From: a marine actinobacterium MedAcidi-G3
GTDB lineage: Bacteria; Actinomycetota; Acidimicrobiia; Acidimicrobiales; Poriferisodalaceae
Reading direction: 5' to 3'
Length of the DNA stretch: 64,000 nt
Assembly: GCA_000817105.1 (NCBI GenBank)
Contig: JUEP01000009.1
Coordinates: 1 to 64,000, forward strand
A program made the translations under genes and the position numbers. Positions 4,380 to 30,723 of this stretch are shown in pieces. Within the stretch, counting starts at the first letter, position 1; the number at the start of each line of letters is the position of its first letter. The notes under the pieces are model-generated. The model was not told where the DNA came from and made no database searches. It worked only from the letters and a program-made list of their open reading frames with translations.

Positions 4380-5783
4380 ATGACTTCTAGCGACTTTGAT
4401 GTAATTGTGATCGGCGGAGGACCGTCTGGCTACGCAACAGCGCTGACAGCGGCAGCAGCGGATCTCAGCGTTGCTCTAATTGAACGAGATCGTCTTGGCG
4501 GAACTTGCCTGCATCGGGGATGTATCCCTGCAAAAGAATTACTTGAAACTGCTTCGGTCCATAGGACCGTTTCACAAGCTGATCAATTTGGCATCATGAC
4601 TGCAGCTCCAGTAGTGGACTTTTCTGCCGCCCAAGATCGTAAACAAGCTGTTGTGGATCGGCTTTTCAAGGGAATAACAAACCTTGTAGAAAGCAAAAAT
4701 ATTGAACTCTTTTCGGGAACGGGAAACCTGACAAAAGATCGAAGGATTGCAGTGCAGATGGATGACGGTGTCGAACAGCTGCTGACCGGTGCCTCGATCG
4801 TGTTAGCTGCAGGTTCTCAGTCAAAAACCCTGCCTGGCTTCGAGATTGACGGTCGCACCATTTTAGGGTCCGACGACGTATTAACTATGACGTCGTTGCC
4901 TGAAAGTGCAGCAGTTATTGGAGGAGGTGCAATCGGTTGCGAATTTGCTTCTATGTTGGCTGACTTAGGAACTGAAGTAACTATTCTCGAAGCAGATGAA
5001 CGGCTTGTTCCTGGAGCTGACGCTGATATAGCCAAAGCGTTGCAACGGTCGTTCAAAAAACGAGGAATCAAAACGCTTACTGGAGTAACCGCTGTTGGGC
5101 ATACCCCTCTGGTGCACGAAACGACCTTGCAGCTAAGCGACGGTGCTGAAATAGAAGTTCAAAAGATTATCGTTTGCATAGGTAGGCGTCCGTATACCGA
5201 ACATCTTCAACTAGCGGAAACATCGGTTGAAGTTGACGACCAAGGTTTTGTGCGGGTTGACGAATTTTGTCGCACAAATTTAGATGGTATTTACGCAGTG
5301 GGTGACTTAATTGCGACGCCGCAACTTGCACATGTCGGCTTTGCCGAAGCCATGTTGGTTGTGAGCGACATAACCGGAGAGCCACGAGCCCCAATTGATT
5401 ACTCGAAAGTTCCTTGGGCAATTTATTGTCACCCCGAGATTGCATACGCAGGATTGAGCGAAGAACAAGCAAAAGCAGATGGATACGAAATCTCTGTTTC
5501 GCAGCATCGATTTATTGGCAACGCTCGGGCCCTGATACACAACGACACCGAAGGCATGGTCAAACTTGTTGCAGAACGCCGAGAAGATGGAAAGGCTGGA
5601 AAACTTTTGGGAGTCCACCTCATAGGGCCATGGGCGACTGAACAACTAGGTCAGGGTTACCTGGCCATTAACCGTGATATTGAAATTAGTGAAATCGCAG
5701 ATTTCGTTCAGCCACATCCCACCCTGTCAGAGCTCTTTGGCGAAGCCGCCCTAGAACTAGCCGGTCGCACATTGCACGGATAA
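4380..5783 (+). CDS. lpdA: dihydrolipoamide dehydrogenase (E3)
   Basis: This 467-residue protein has the full layout of E3 flavoproteins. It has an N-terminal FAD fingerprint IGGGPSGY, the redox disulfide GGTCLHRGCIPAK (C43 and C48), a central NAD fingerprint IGGGAIGCEFA, a second FAD contact in YAVGDL, and a C-terminal HPTLSE with the catalytic His-Glu pair. It reoxidises the dihydrolipoyl arm of 2-oxoacid dehydrogenase complexes or the glycine cleavage system, reducing NAD+. The lipoate ligation/synthesis fusion gene follows 52 bases downstream, so enzyme and cofactor genes are adjacent. It should not be confused with the LpdA-like gene at 29.4 kb, which lacks a redox cysteine. Confidence 0.95.
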   Translation: MTSSDFDVIVIGGGPSGYATALTAAAADLSVALIERDRLGGTCLHRGCIPAKELLETASVHRTVSQADQFGIMTAAPVVDFSAAQDRKQAVVDRLFKGITNLVESKNIELFSGTGNLTKDRRIAVQMDDGVEQLLTGASIVLAAGSQSKTLPGFEIDGRTILGSDDVLTMTSLPESAAVIGGGAIGCEFASMLADLGTEVTILEADERLVPGADADIAKALQRSFKKRGIKTLTGVTAVGHTPLVHETTLQLSDGAEIEVQKIIVCIGRRPYTEHLQLAETSVEVDDQGFVRVDEFCRTNLDGIYAVGDLIATPQLAHVGFAEAMLVVSDITGEPRAPIDYSKVPWAIYCHPEIAYAGLSEEQAKADGYEISVSQHRFIGNARALIHNDTEGMVKLVAERREDGKAGKLLGVHLIGPWATEQLGQGYLAINRDIEISEIADFVQPHPTLSELFGEAALELAGRTLHG

Positions 5784-5835
5784 GGCAGCATTGAATATGA
5801 ACTTCGAAACCTCCGACCAAAGTGTTGTCAAATAA

Positions 5836-7512
5836 ATGTTTAGAGTCCGCTGGCTAGGTCAAGTCGACTATGAAGAATCGCTAGATCTGCAACGAAAACT
5901 TTTTCACTCGAGTGATGACGATCACCTGCTGCTACTTGAACACCAACATGTTTTTACAGGCGGACCTAACACGGACTTATCGCACCTTCTTATAGACCCA
6001 CGCAACATCGGAGCAACATACAAACAAGTTGACCGGGGAGGTGACATTACCTATCACGGTCCAGGGCAACTCACCGGGTACCCCGTGCTATCGCTGCCGG
6101 GTCGGCGGGGCGGGGGTCTGGCGGAGACCAAAGCTTACGTACACCAAGTAGAACAAGTCTTAATCGACTCGCTCAGAGAATTAGGACTCGACGACTGCTT
6201 TCGTATAGGCCGATACCCGGGTGTATGGGTGAACTCCAAAAGCGGGAATCCCCGAAAGGTAGCCGCCGTTGGTGTTCGACTCAGTCGTGGGCGAACCATG
6301 CACGGCTTTGCTCTCAATGTGACAACAGATCTTTCCTGGTTCGACCACATCGTTCCATGTGGGATCAACGAATTTACGGCTACCAGCCTGAAAGATGAAG
6401 GTATCGACGTACCAATGGAGGCGGTCGTAGAGGAGGTCACGAAGAAAGCAGTCACAAGCTGGGGAATTGACGGATCTGACATCGCCGGGATTACATCCCC
6501 ACATCAAACCCAAGATTTAGAAATATTTAAAGGCGACCATGCAGGCGTATCCAAGGCTGGACGAGAAGTAATAGTTCCGCTTCGGGAGCGAAAAACAACA
6601 GACCGAAGACAGCGACGCCTAACCGAAGCGGGGGTTCCGAACGGGTTTTCGATAACCGACAGAAAGCCCTCTTGGATGAAAGCGAAAATCGAGGTCAATA
6701 ACGGTTATCGACGAGTTCGTTCAACTCTTCGCGACCTTGACCTAACGACGGTTTGCGAAGAGGCAGGTTGCCCGAATATTTACGAATGTTGGGGCAAAGA
6801 CACAGCCACATTTATGATCAATGGCAGCCGATGCACGCGCGCATGCAGTTTTTGCCTTGTCGATACGCAACGTCCGGTGGATCTTGATGAAGAAGAACCA
6901 GAACGCGTCGCAAAGGCAGTCTCGGATCTAGCGCTGCTGCACGTGGTTGTTACCGCTGTCGCTCGCGATGATCTAAGTGATGGAGGGGTCATCGGATTCG
7001 CAAACACCGTTAGAGCAATTCGAGTCGCTAGCCCATCCACCACTATTGAAACACTCGTTCCAGACTTTGGCGGCAAAAAAGATTCACTGGGATGTTTGTT
7101 AAATGAACGACCCGACGTCGTTAACCACAACATAGAGACTGTTGTGCGGCTTCAACGTGCAGTGCGTCCAAGTGCCGGATATGCCAGGAGTTTGGCTCTT
7201 CTCGCTCGGGTAAAGGAAGAAGGAATCACCACGAAATCAGGATTGATCACAGGACTGGGAGAGTCTGATGACGAACTTGTTTCGACACTTGCCGACCTGG
7301 CTTCGGTCGGTGTCGACATCGTGACGATCGGTCAATATCTCAGGCCGACTGCTAGCCACATACCAGTGCAAAGATGGGTAACTCCTCAAGTCTTCGAAAT
7401 GCTGGCCCAACGTGGCCGTGAACTGGGAATCTCACACGTAGAGGCAGGCCCCCTCACAAGGTCAAGTTATAACGCAGCCGAGAGCATCCGGTCGCTAACG
7501 GCAACTCCGTAA
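5836..7512 (+). CDS. lipB-lipA: bifunctional octanoyltransferase-lipoyl synthase (LipB-LipA fusion)
   Basis: Residues 1-215 are LipB, which moves octanoate from ACP to the target lysine: RGGDITYHGPGQ, K141 in RKVAAVGV and the acyl-accepting C175 in IVPCGINEF are all present. Residues about 270-558 are LipA, a radical-SAM enzyme that inserts two sulfurs. It has the auxiliary cluster motif C307-x4-C312-x5-C318 (CEEAGCPNIYEC), the SAM cluster C333-x3-C337-x2-C340 (CTRACSFC) and the C-terminal RSSY that ligates the auxiliary cluster. The two are normally separate neighbouring genes; here they are one uninterrupted 558-residue frame with a roughly 55-residue charged linker. All key residues are intact, so both activities are expected. 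Lpd lies directly upstream. Confidence 0.95.
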   Translation: MFRVRWLGQVDYEESLDLQRKLFHSSDDDHLLLLEHQHVFTGGPNTDLSHLLIDPRNIGATYKQVDRGGDITYHGPGQLTGYPVLSLPGRRGGGLAETKAYVHQVEQVLIDSLRELGLDDCFRIGRYPGVWVNSKSGNPRKVAAVGVRLSRGRTMHGFALNVTTDLSWFDHIVPCGINEFTATSLKDEGIDVPMEAVVEEVTKKAVTSWGIDGSDIAGITSPHQTQDLEIFKGDHAGVSKAGREVIVPLRERKTTDRRQRRLTEAGVPNGFSITDRKPSWMKAKIEVNNGYRRVRSTLRDLDLTTVCEEAGCPNIYECWGKDTATFMINGSRCTRACSFCLVDTQRPVDLDEEEPERVAKAVSDLALLHVVVTAVARDDLSDGGVIGFANTVRAIRVASPSTTIETLVPDFGGKKDSLGCLLNERPDVVNHNIETVVRLQRAVRPSAGYARSLALLARVKEEGITTKSGLITGLGESDDELVSTLADLASVGVDIVTIGQYLRPTASHIPVQRWVTPQVFEMLAQRGRELGISHVEAGPLTRSSYNAAESIRSLTATP

Positions 7513-7525
7513 TATTGAGTCCAGG

Positions 7526-8347
7526 GTGGCTACACTCCCAATAATGGCCGCTGGTCCACAACTTGACGCCGCAACAATACTGCTGCAGTGGGCAACTGGC
7601 GGTCTTCTGTTTTGTTGGGTCACGACGCGCCGCAGAGAATTAGGAGATGGCTACGGATGGCTCCTTCGCGCGAGCTATGCGGCGATAGCAACCCTTGCGG
7701 CGATCGCTGGATATGGATGGGCATCTGAACCTATCCGAGATGCCGCATCAGTCGCTGTAGCTGTAACTGCCGCATTCGCCTTGGTGCTATCAATCGTTCA
7801 ACGAACTGGGGATTCAACGTCCCGGTCCACTGAATCTAGAGAAGGAACATCAAGCTTTGATCCCCGATGGGACCTTTTAGCCCCCATTGTTGGGACTATC
7901 GGATTGGTAGCTGCGGGCCTAGGTGGTGGAGGAAATGAAGTTCTGCAGACAGCAAGAATCTTGGTTGGCGCCGCATTCTTGGGTTCAGTTACTGATGCCA
8001 TGTTGCTAGGACACTGGTATCTAGTTCAACCAGGCTTGCGAAGAGAGCCGTTGTTAGAGCAGGTTTCATGGCTCGGTAGGCTGTGGCCCTTAGAGGTTGG
8101 CCTGCTCATTGTGCCGACAGGCATGCTTTCGGTGCTATCAGGAACAATTGATGACAGCTACGGAGGAATGCTCGGATGGTTTTGGTTGGCCTGCGCTTTG
8201 ACCACCGGAGTTTTGGTGATTGTTACTCGCGCTGCACTTCGCGAGCGTGAATATGCAGCCGTGATGGCTGCTACTGGGCTCTTGTACCTGGCAATATTGA
8301 CTGCGTTCGGGACTGACGTTGTGGCGCGACTAGTACTTGAAATCTAA
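7526..8347 (+). CDS. multi-pass membrane protein of unknown function
   Basis: This 273-residue protein (GTG start) has about eight hydrophobic segments, for example LLQWATGGLLFCWV, a long run near residues 75-90, and LLYLAILTAFGTDVVARLVL at the end. A hydrophilic Ser/Thr/Arg-rich loop lies around residues 93-112. I recognise no catalytic motif. It begins 13 bases after lipB-lipA, which suggests cotranscription, and a GHWYLVQPGL stretch recalls actinobacterial conserved membrane proteins. No function is assigned. Confidence 0.65.
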   Translation: MATLPIMAAGPQLDAATILLQWATGGLLFCWVTTRRRELGDGYGWLLRASYAAIATLAAIAGYGWASEPIRDAASVAVAVTAAFALVLSIVQRTGDSTSRSTESREGTSSFDPRWDLLAPIVGTIGLVAAGLGGGGNEVLQTARILVGAAFLGSVTDAMLLGHWYLVQPGLRREPLLEQVSWLGRLWPLEVGLLIVPTGMLSVLSGTIDDSYGGMLGWFWLACALTTGVLVIVTRAALREREYAAVMAATGLLYLAILTAFGTDVVARLVLEI

Positions 8348-28131: not shown

Positions 28132-29292
28132 ATGACCAGCTACGGGGATCTGCTAGCGGCAGCAAAACAACAAATAGCCGAAGTCGACACGTTGCAAGCA
28201 GCTCAACTCATCCAAGACGGATACGAAACACTTGACGTGAGAGAGCCCGAAGAGTTTGAACAAGGGGCCATAACAGGAGCCATACATATTCCGCGTGGTC
28301 ACCTTGAAAGCCAAATTGAACAGCGGCTACCTAAGCGCGACAGCAAGATCATGGTCTACTGCGCTGGCGGGTCGCGATCAGCTTTTGCTGCCAAAACCCT
28401 CAATGACCTCGGATATAGCGAGGTCATTTCAATGGACGGCGGATTTACGAAATGGAAGTCCGAAGGCCGACCATGGGATCTGCCCAAAACTCTTAACCAC
28501 AATCAGCGAAACAGATACCAACGCCACCTCCTTCTCCCAGAAATCGGAGAACAAGGCCAACAAGAGTTGCTGGAAGCAAAAGTACTTCTACTAGGAGCAG
28601 GCGGCTTGGGGTCACCAGCTGCCATGTATCTAGCGGCGGCTGGGGTCGGAACGTTAGGAATCATCGACATGGACATTGTTGATGAGTCCAATCTTCAACG
28701 CCAGATAATTCACGACACGACGCGCGTCGGACTCTCGAAAGTTGAATCAGCCAGACAAACGATCGCGGCGTTAAACCCCCACATCAATACCAAAATCTAC
28801 GACACCCGCCTTAGCGCAGAAAACGTTCTCAGCCTCTTAGCTGAGTGGGACGTAGTAGTAGACGGAGCAGATAATTTCCCGAGCCGGTATCTCCTCAACG
28901 ATGCGTCCGTCAAACTTGGCATACCAGTCATTCATGGTTCAATCTTCAGATTCGAAGGCCAAGTAACCGTTTTCGACCCCATCAACGGCCCAACATATCG
29001 AGACTATGTACCCGTGCCCCCTCCGCCTGAATTAGCGCCCTCATGCTCTGAAGCAGGCGTACTCGGTGTGCTACCGGGTATTATCGGCAGCCTCCAAGCC
29101 CTAGAAACCATAAAATTGTTGCTTAATCTCGGAGACTCACTCACGGGAAGACTCCTCGCATTCGATGCTCTAGAAATGACTTTCAGGGAATACAAACTTC
29201 ACCGCAGCGAACAAAACCAAGTCACCTACGACAACCGTGACAGAATTAAAATTGTCGAATACGACCAATTTTGCTCGCCCACACTCACTTGA
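28132..29292 (+). CDS. rhodanese-MoeB/ThiF fusion, sulfur-carrier adenylyltransferase
   Basis: Residues 10-115 are a rhodanese domain with the persulfide-forming C77 in CAGGSRS. Residues 125-386 are a MoeB/ThiF E1-like adenylyltransferase with GAGGLGSPAA, DMDIVDESNLQRQI and the VDGADNFPSRYLLND segment. The domain order is reversed relative to MoeZ/MOCS3, where rhodanese is C-terminal. The first zinc Cys pair of typical MoeB (CYRC) is replaced by TYRD, while the active-site Cys in PSCSEAGVLG is kept. It would adenylate and sulfurate ThiS/MoaD/CysO-like carriers, which are not encoded nearby. Confidence 0.9.
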   Translation: MTSYGDLLAAAKQQIAEVDTLQAAQLIQDGYETLDVREPEEFEQGAITGAIHIPRGHLESQIEQRLPKRDSKIMVYCAGGSRSAFAAKTLNDLGYSEVISMDGGFTKWKSEGRPWDLPKTLNHNQRNRYQRHLLLPEIGEQGQQELLEAKVLLLGAGGLGSPAAMYLAAAGVGTLGIIDMDIVDESNLQRQIIHDTTRVGLSKVESARQTIAALNPHINTKIYDTRLSAENVLSLLAEWDVVVDGADNFPSRYLLNDASVKLGIPVIHGSIFRFEGQVTVFDPINGPTYRDYVPVPPPPELAPSCSEAGVLGVLPGIIGSLQALETIKLLLNLGDSLTGRLLAFDALEMTFREYKLHRSEQNQVTYDNRDRIKIVEYDQFCSPTLT

Positions 29293-29355: not shown

Positions 29356-30723
29356 ATGACCAACAAGCGGATCATAGTTATAGGCGGCGGCCCGGCAGGA
29401 CACGACGCCGCCAACTCCGCGGCGAGGTTTGGCGCAGATGTAATCTTGGTTGAACGCGACATTGTCGGCGGCGCAGCGCACCTCCGAGACTGCGTGCCAT
29501 CCAAATCGATGATTGCAACAGGCGGAGCCCTTTCATTTGCCCGACGGATAGATGGAATGGGACTAGCAAATGTTGAAACTGGGGTAGATGCCGAGCACTT
29601 GCGGGCCCGCATCCGAGAAATAGAGCACCGTCTTGAACAGTCAGTAACGGAGATCCTCACAAGCCAAGGCGTCAAGATATACAAGGGAACTGGGCGACTT
29701 CTCGGCCCTAATGAAGTAAGCGTTGAAACAGCAGATGAGTCTTTTGAATTAGCTGCAGACGCAATCGTCCTTGCTACCGGAAGTCGGCCACGGATCCCGG
29801 AATGGGCCCCGATAGACCACGAACGAGTCTTAACTACCCGCGACTCATACCCACCGGTCGAGCTGCCGGAACACCTTATAGTTATTGGATCCGGTGTCAC
29901 CGGCGTCGAATTCGTCCATATGTTTGCTTCGCTAGGCTCCGAGGTCACATTGATTGTCAGCCGACAACAAGTTCTTCCTCAAAAAGATCCGGAAGCTGCC
30001 GCGTTGCTCGAACAAAACTTTTTAGACCGAGGAGTTCAGCTTCTCAAGGGAGCACGAGCAACCGAAATTCTGCGCAATGGGCCAGTAGTGAAGGTTCACT
30101 GCTCCGACGGGCGAACAGCGGAAGGATCGCACGCTGTTTTGGCGATCGGGTCTGACCCCAATAGCCAAGAACTGGGTCTAGAAAACACCGATATAGCAAT
30201 GGACGAGCTTGGCTACATTCAGGTCGACCATAACCTCAGATCATCAGTTCCATCGATCTACGCTGCTGGTGACTTGTCAGGCAAGCTCCCGCTGTCCTCC
30301 GTTGCTGCGATGCAGGGACGAAAAATAGCTGAACATATTATGGGTTTACATGAAGGGCGAGAACATCGACATCTTGACTATGACAAAGCAGCCTCCGCGA
30401 TTTTTACCGAACCCGAAATTGCTGACGTTGGCCTGGCTGAAGCTGAAGCTTTCGCTACGGGACGAAAGATCCGAGTAACGAAAGTACCGTTCTCATCAAA
30501 CGCCAAAGCGCTAATAAACAATGATCCCTTAGGGTTTGTGAAAATAGTTTCTGATCCCAACACGGGCCATGTGTTGGGAGGATCAATTGTGGGTCAACAC
30601 GCTGCCGAACTCATCTCCGTAGTAGCTCTGGCAGTGAGCGCGAATCTTAAGGTACAAGATATTCACGAAAGCCTTTTTGTGTACCCGACGCTAAGTGAAG
30701 CTCTCATAGAGGCAGCTGAGTGA
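29356..30723 (+). CDS. LpdA-like NAD(P)H:quinone reductase flavoprotein
   Basis: This is a 455-residue member of the two-dinucleotide-binding flavoprotein family, with IGGGPAGHDAAN (FAD), IGSGVTGVEF (NAD(P)) and YAAGDLSG. The redox disulfide is absent: the motif reads GGAAHLRDCVPSK, Ala at position 41 and only C46 kept. The C-terminus has YPTLSE instead of HPTLSE. This is the pattern of M. tuberculosis LpdA (Rv3303c), a quinone reductase rather than a true lipoamide dehydrogenase. It is thus not redundant with the E3 gene at 4.4 kb. Its stop overlaps rmlD. Confidence 0.88.
   Translation: MTNKRIIVIGGGPAGHDAANSAARFGADVILVERDIVGGAAHLRDCVPSKSMIATGGALSFARRIDGMGLANVETGVDAEHLRARIREIEHRLEQSVTEILTSQGVKIYKGTGRLLGPNEVSVETADESFELAADAIVLATGSRPRIPEWAPIDHERVLTTRDSYPPVELPEHLIVIGSGVTGVEFVHMFASLGSEVTLIVSRQQVLPQKDPEAAALLEQNFLDRGVQLLKGARATEILRNGPVVKVHCSDGRTAEGSHAVLAIGSDPNSQELGLENTDIAMDELGYIQVDHNLRSSVPSIYAAGDLSGKLPLSSVAAMQGRKIAEHIMGLHEGREHRHLDYDKAASAIFTEPEIADVGLAEAEAFATGRKIRVTKVPFSSNAKALINNDPLGFVKIVSDPNTGHVLGGSIVGQHAAELISVVALAVSANLKVQDIHESLFVYPTLSEALIEAAE

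Follow-up and report, generated by a model that had tools for sequence, protein, structure and literature searches.

A LipB-LipA fusion protein conserved across the Acidimicrobiia, probably a bifunctional lipoyl-cofactor synthase

The window (i.e., the whole stretch of 64,000 nucleotides that was analysed) carried a lipB-lipA fusion gene, hereafter lipBA, between a dihydrolipoyl dehydrogenase gene and a conserved gene without Pfam match. The gene, the domains of its product and the two neighbouring genes are located in Table 1.

Table 1. Positions of lipBA, its encoded domains and its neighbouring genes in the window
Feature	Position	Strand	Description
lpd, dihydrolipoyl dehydrogenase	4380..5783	+	Directly upstream of lipBA, operon-like row; TIGR01350 467 bits, cut-off 409
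lipB-lipA fusion gene (lipBA)	5836..7512	+	558 codons plus stop, single copy in genome
LipB domain	5866..6447	+	Pfam LplA-B_cat, residues 11-204; RGG 67-69, K141, H156, C175
Variable linker	6451..6657	+	About residues 206-274; 222-252 predicted disordered
LipA domain	6658..7485	+	LIAS_N plus Radical_SAM, about residues 275-550
Conserved gene, unknown family, probably membrane protein	7526..8347	+	Directly downstream of lipBA; no Pfam match

The lipBA frame started with ATG and contained no internal stop codon. Pfam assigned to its product an LplA-B_cat domain (residues 11-204) followed by LIAS_N (275-312) and Radical_SAM (331-487) domains. The LipB half scored above the cut-offs of the lipB equivalog TIGR00214 (140.1 bits, cut-off 83.55) and of lipB model NF010925 (175.7 bits, cut-off 155), and the LipA half above that of the lipA equivalog TIGR00510 (336.7 bits, cut-off 310.25). 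The original prediction of LipB and LipA within one 558-residue frame was thus borne out.

The catalytic residues of LipB stood at the positions that had been claimed for them. K141 and C175 aligned with Lys142 and Cys176 of Mycobacterium tuberculosis LipB (1w66), which form the catalytic pair of that enzyme (PMC9307952), and the RGG motif, part of the LipB loop covering the active site (PMC9307952), was present as R67, G68 and G69. In an alignment of 95 fusion proteins, K141, H156 and C175 were invariant and the RGG motif was conserved at 99-100%.

The LipA half displayed the full set of diagnostic residues expected from the original prediction, but the wording of "two CxxxC-type cluster motifs" had to be corrected: the motifs were CX4CX5C (C307, C312, C318) and CX3CX2C (C333, C337, C340), which in LipA bind the auxiliary and the radical SAM cluster, respectively, and are completed by a C-terminal RSSY (PMC12246082), here at residues 542-545 (R542 to Y545). 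These cluster ligands aligned with those of solved enzymes. All six cysteines were invariant in the 95 fusion proteins; within RSSY, both serines were conserved at about 98-99% and the tyrosine at 67%.

The search of the window genome with the lipBA protein returned no second match besides the window copy, and the PF21948 search of the same genome found no LipB/LplA-type catalytic domain beyond the fusion's own. Since the fusion held the only PF21948 domain and was the only match to its own protein, no separate lipB or lipA copies were found. Two other fused genes were observed in the window, one encoding RNase HI with a C-terminal YpsA-like SLOG domain (1656-2660, + strand, 334 aa; Pfam RNase_H, YpsA), the other a Rhodanese domain ahead of a ThiF/MoeB-type adenylating domain (28132-29292, + strand, 386 aa).

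A survey of the taxonomic spread of the LipB+LipA architecture, as the original prediction had proposed, found it class-wide in Acidimicrobiia and not among the matches listed from samples of two other phyla. All intact Acidimicrobiia copies examined were fused (101 loci in the ORF test, together with members of every class-level order sampled). Within the family, 38 of the 39 genomes matched the fusion, including all 25 of high quality, and most copies formed one full-length open frame, the exceptions being mainly copies truncated at contig ends. Within the order, the fusion matched 371 of 397 genomes (281 of 292 high-quality ones); each of the full-length matches listed was a single frame, and so were the members of the class's other orders included in the phylum sample. 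Among named genome contigs, intact Acidimicrobiia loci were fused and loci from outside the class were not. Such fusions had been expected to be uncommon, which held outside the Acidimicrobiia but not within the class, where fusion was the normal state, as the high-quality genomes of the order indicate.

Sixteen members of the order with weak or no match were rechecked with the lipA profile. Twelve of them gave no lipA-grade hit, which implies absence or missing contigs rather than separate genes. One genome held a 30-residue fragment (G161) and another contig-broken pieces (G059); in two more, lipA lay within open frames of 585 and 516 codons (G073 and G039, respectively) that were scored as fused (L134, L135). 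Three members of the order had been flagged for an internal TAA, but on direct reading split genes were rejected, the TAA being the natural C-terminal stop in all three. One contig titled Bifidobacterium breve (L050) bore an Acidimicrobiia-type lipBA fusion and probably represents a mislabelled bin.

In the rest of the phylum, lipB and lipA were separate and often adjacent with stop codons between them, and no uninterrupted lipB-lipA fusion was found there. Among the matches listed, no stop-free full-length fusion was found in the 301-genome sample of the phylum of a Chloroflexi locus (L055) or in the 200-genome sample of the phylum of a Steroidobacter locus (L067). As sampling outside the fusion's own phylum covered the matches listed from these two phyla, independent fusions elsewhere are possible.

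In the trees of the LipB and LipA halves, a single branch set the fused sequences apart from all others (SH-aLRT 95 and 97, respectively), and the fusion state changed once per tree, a count as low being reached in none of 500 shuffles; both trees came from quick searches, with SH-aLRT as their sole support measure and a limited outgroup. A single ancient fusion, passed down within the Acidimicrobiia, would fit this distribution. The chances that this fusion was neutral, with adjacent and co-transcribed lipB and lipA losing the intervening stop codon early and the two domains acting independently ever since, appear evenly balanced. Outside the class, both in the rest of the phylum and beyond it, neighbouring lipB and lipA genes with intervening stop codons, often in frame, occur, and the linker joining the two halves is variable, both as expected from such an origin. 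Against it, no Acidimicrobiia genome examined had reverted to two genes, which hints at some benefit of the fusion, though reversal is also mechanically unlikely.

The linker was the least conserved stretch of the alignment of 95 fusion proteins, and its length ranged from 24 to 94 residues (mostly about 47-83). The predicted structure of the fusion reached a mean pLDDT of 85 and a pTM of 0.87, with pLDDT below 50 at linker residues 222-252, and both of its folds matched the structures of M. tuberculosis LipA and LipB, the nearest solved relatives. The properties of the linker, as aligned and modelled, fit a flexible tether, and its poor conservation argues against a specific interface formed by the linker itself. 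The pTM over the whole chain suggests that the LipB and LipA domains may adopt a preferred arrangement.

LipB yields an octanoylated lysine on a carrier protein that is not part of this chain and has to visit both active sites. An octanoylated domain inside the chain that passes its product directly to the synthase, as the original prediction had it, was not supported in that wording, for the fusion had no lipoyl domain. We infer both chemistries from the known LipB and LipA families. In the LipB domain, the octanoyl group would move from octanoyl-ACP to C175 as a thioester, assisted by K141, and from there onto a separate carrier protein at its lipoyl lysine. The LipA domain, a predicted radical SAM enzyme of whose two 4Fe-4S clusters one would bind SAM and the other be sacrificed, would then add two sulfurs to the octanoyl chain of that carrier. 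The tether would hold both active sites in a 1:1 ratio and near each other for the visiting carrier, which in the window's genus would most likely be GcvH of the glycine cleavage system. A gain from tethering LipB to LipA is plausible. Taken together, the best explanation, and a highly probable one, is a bifunctional lipoyl-cofactor synthase acting on a separate carrier, most likely GcvH in the window's genus.

True channelling, in which both active sites would face one docked carrier and the octanoylated lysine would swing from LipB to LipA while the carrier stays in place, appears rather unlikely. Retention of the fusion across the entire class and a pTM suggestive of a preferred relative placement of the two domains agree with it. 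On the other hand, the linker varies widely in length, is little conserved and is partly predicted to be disordered. Channelling is also not required, since in other bacteria the mobile lipoyl carriers move between separate enzymes. The same long, variable and probably disordered linker would suit a chain translated as a fusion and then cut into separate LipB and LipA proteins, but no conserved cleavage motif was apparent in this least conserved part of the protein, and such processing is very improbable.

That two genes were joined by an error of assembly or sequencing has a negligible probability: apart from the draft state of the source genome nothing points to it, independent projects have recovered the same frame in many genera, among others in the complete genome CP011489 (L030), and in L047, the sole class member seen with a broken frame, the break falls at a run of Ns marking an assembly gap. 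A stop codon between the LipB and LipA domains, the observation proposed in advance as speaking against the fusion, was absent, and the recurrence of the same open frame in independent genomes excludes a sequencing error. The lipBA fusion is real, conserved, built of two ordinary parts and probably fully functional as a bifunctional enzyme.

Where the upstream DNA reached far enough, lpd lay about 1.1-1.8 kb upstream of lipBA in most Acidimicrobiia loci, and in all five such loci that were read the gap was filled by an E2 (2-oxoacid dehydrogenase acyltransferase) with a lipoyl domain (motif TDKVD or TEKVD). The gene order lpd-(E2)-lipBA places the fusion with predicted lipoate-using enzymes. 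In the window's genus (g1) and its sister genera g8 and g9, about 55 bases separated the end of the lpd frame from lipBA, and no E2 lay in this gap (window 5783-5836; L173 and L174, compared with L172 and L178). The gene downstream of lipBA was the same in these E2-less genera and in E2-bearing ones, which, with the E2-free junction, suggests that E2 was lost cleanly. A second lpd-like flavoprotein gene was observed elsewhere in the window (29356-30723, + strand), nearest to the NAD(P)H-quinone dehydrogenase model NF005883 (462/479 bits, just below the cut-off).

Of the 14 genomes of g1, g8 and g9, 12 gave no hit to the E2 catalytic domain, six of these 12 being at least 90% complete; all 25 genomes of the other genera had it. 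Both exceptions are weak. In one genome (G011) the match was a 49-residue piece at a contig end (C158, L176); in the other (G035), a bin of 630 contigs, the E2 lay on a contig unlinked to the genome's own E2-less lpd-lipBA junction. The E2-like fragment of G011 (L176) continued directly as an unrelated helicase-like frame, and its contig looks chimeric.

GcvH was present in 38 of the 39 family genomes and in all six E2-less genomes of g1, g8 and g9 that were at least 90% complete. In the window genome (completeness 88.6%), GcvH carried the lipoyl-lysine motif AEIESTKSVSD. Five biotin/lipoyl-domain matches were obtained in this genome; the four that were read carried a biotin-type MKM motif, and the fifth lay in a 1135-codon frame (C27). 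With E2 lost from the ancestral lpd-E2-lipBA row, GcvH appears to be the most likely, perhaps the only, substrate of the fusion in the window's genus. That the class-wide LipB-LipA synthase serves GcvH alone in g1, g8 and g9, following deletion of E2 from lpd-E2-lipBA, is slightly favoured over the contrary, and in those genera the fusion might have adapted to this single carrier. If so, these bacteria would maintain the full lipoylation machinery solely for glycine cleavage. The loss of E2 in the three genera also suggests a rewired oxidation of pyruvate and 2-oxoglutarate there.

Neither the fusion nor the E2 loss would overturn current understanding. A natural LipB-LipA fusion nevertheless offers a ready test of whether physical linkage aids the two steps of lipoyl assembly, a single protein for the study or engineering of lipoylation, and a candidate gene-structure marker for Acidimicrobiia. 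Automatic database annotation may already name such proteins lipB/lipA fusions. A literature search of partial coverage returned no description of a LipB-LipA fusion, and Acidimicrobiia were not mentioned in a study on the evolution of lipoate assembly (PMC10332631).

Among known systems, the bifunctional lipoate--protein ligase/lipoyl synthase NF053790 (LplA_LipA_fuse) likewise sets a lipoate-attaching enzyme ahead of LipA, but its first half is, by the name of the model, LplA, an ATP-using ligase, whereas the window fusion has LipB. Membership of lipBA in NF053790 was rejected: its 342 bits fell short of the cut-off of 800, and the match spanned the LipA half alone (331-605 of the 606 positions). 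Other Actinomycetota and other phyla encode the same two enzymes side by side in separate lipB and lipA genes, with stop codons between them that the fusion does not have. M. tuberculosis LipB (1w66; TIGR00214) shares the full catalytic domain, the RGG loop, the Lys/Cys pair and the fold, and the LipB of the window differs in being the N-terminal half of a longer chain. M. tuberculosis LipA (5exi/5exk; TIGR00510) shares CX4CX5C, CX3CX2C, RSSY and the fold, with about 46-48% identity to 5exk, whereas the LipA of the window has no free N-terminus and is joined to LipB by the variable linker.
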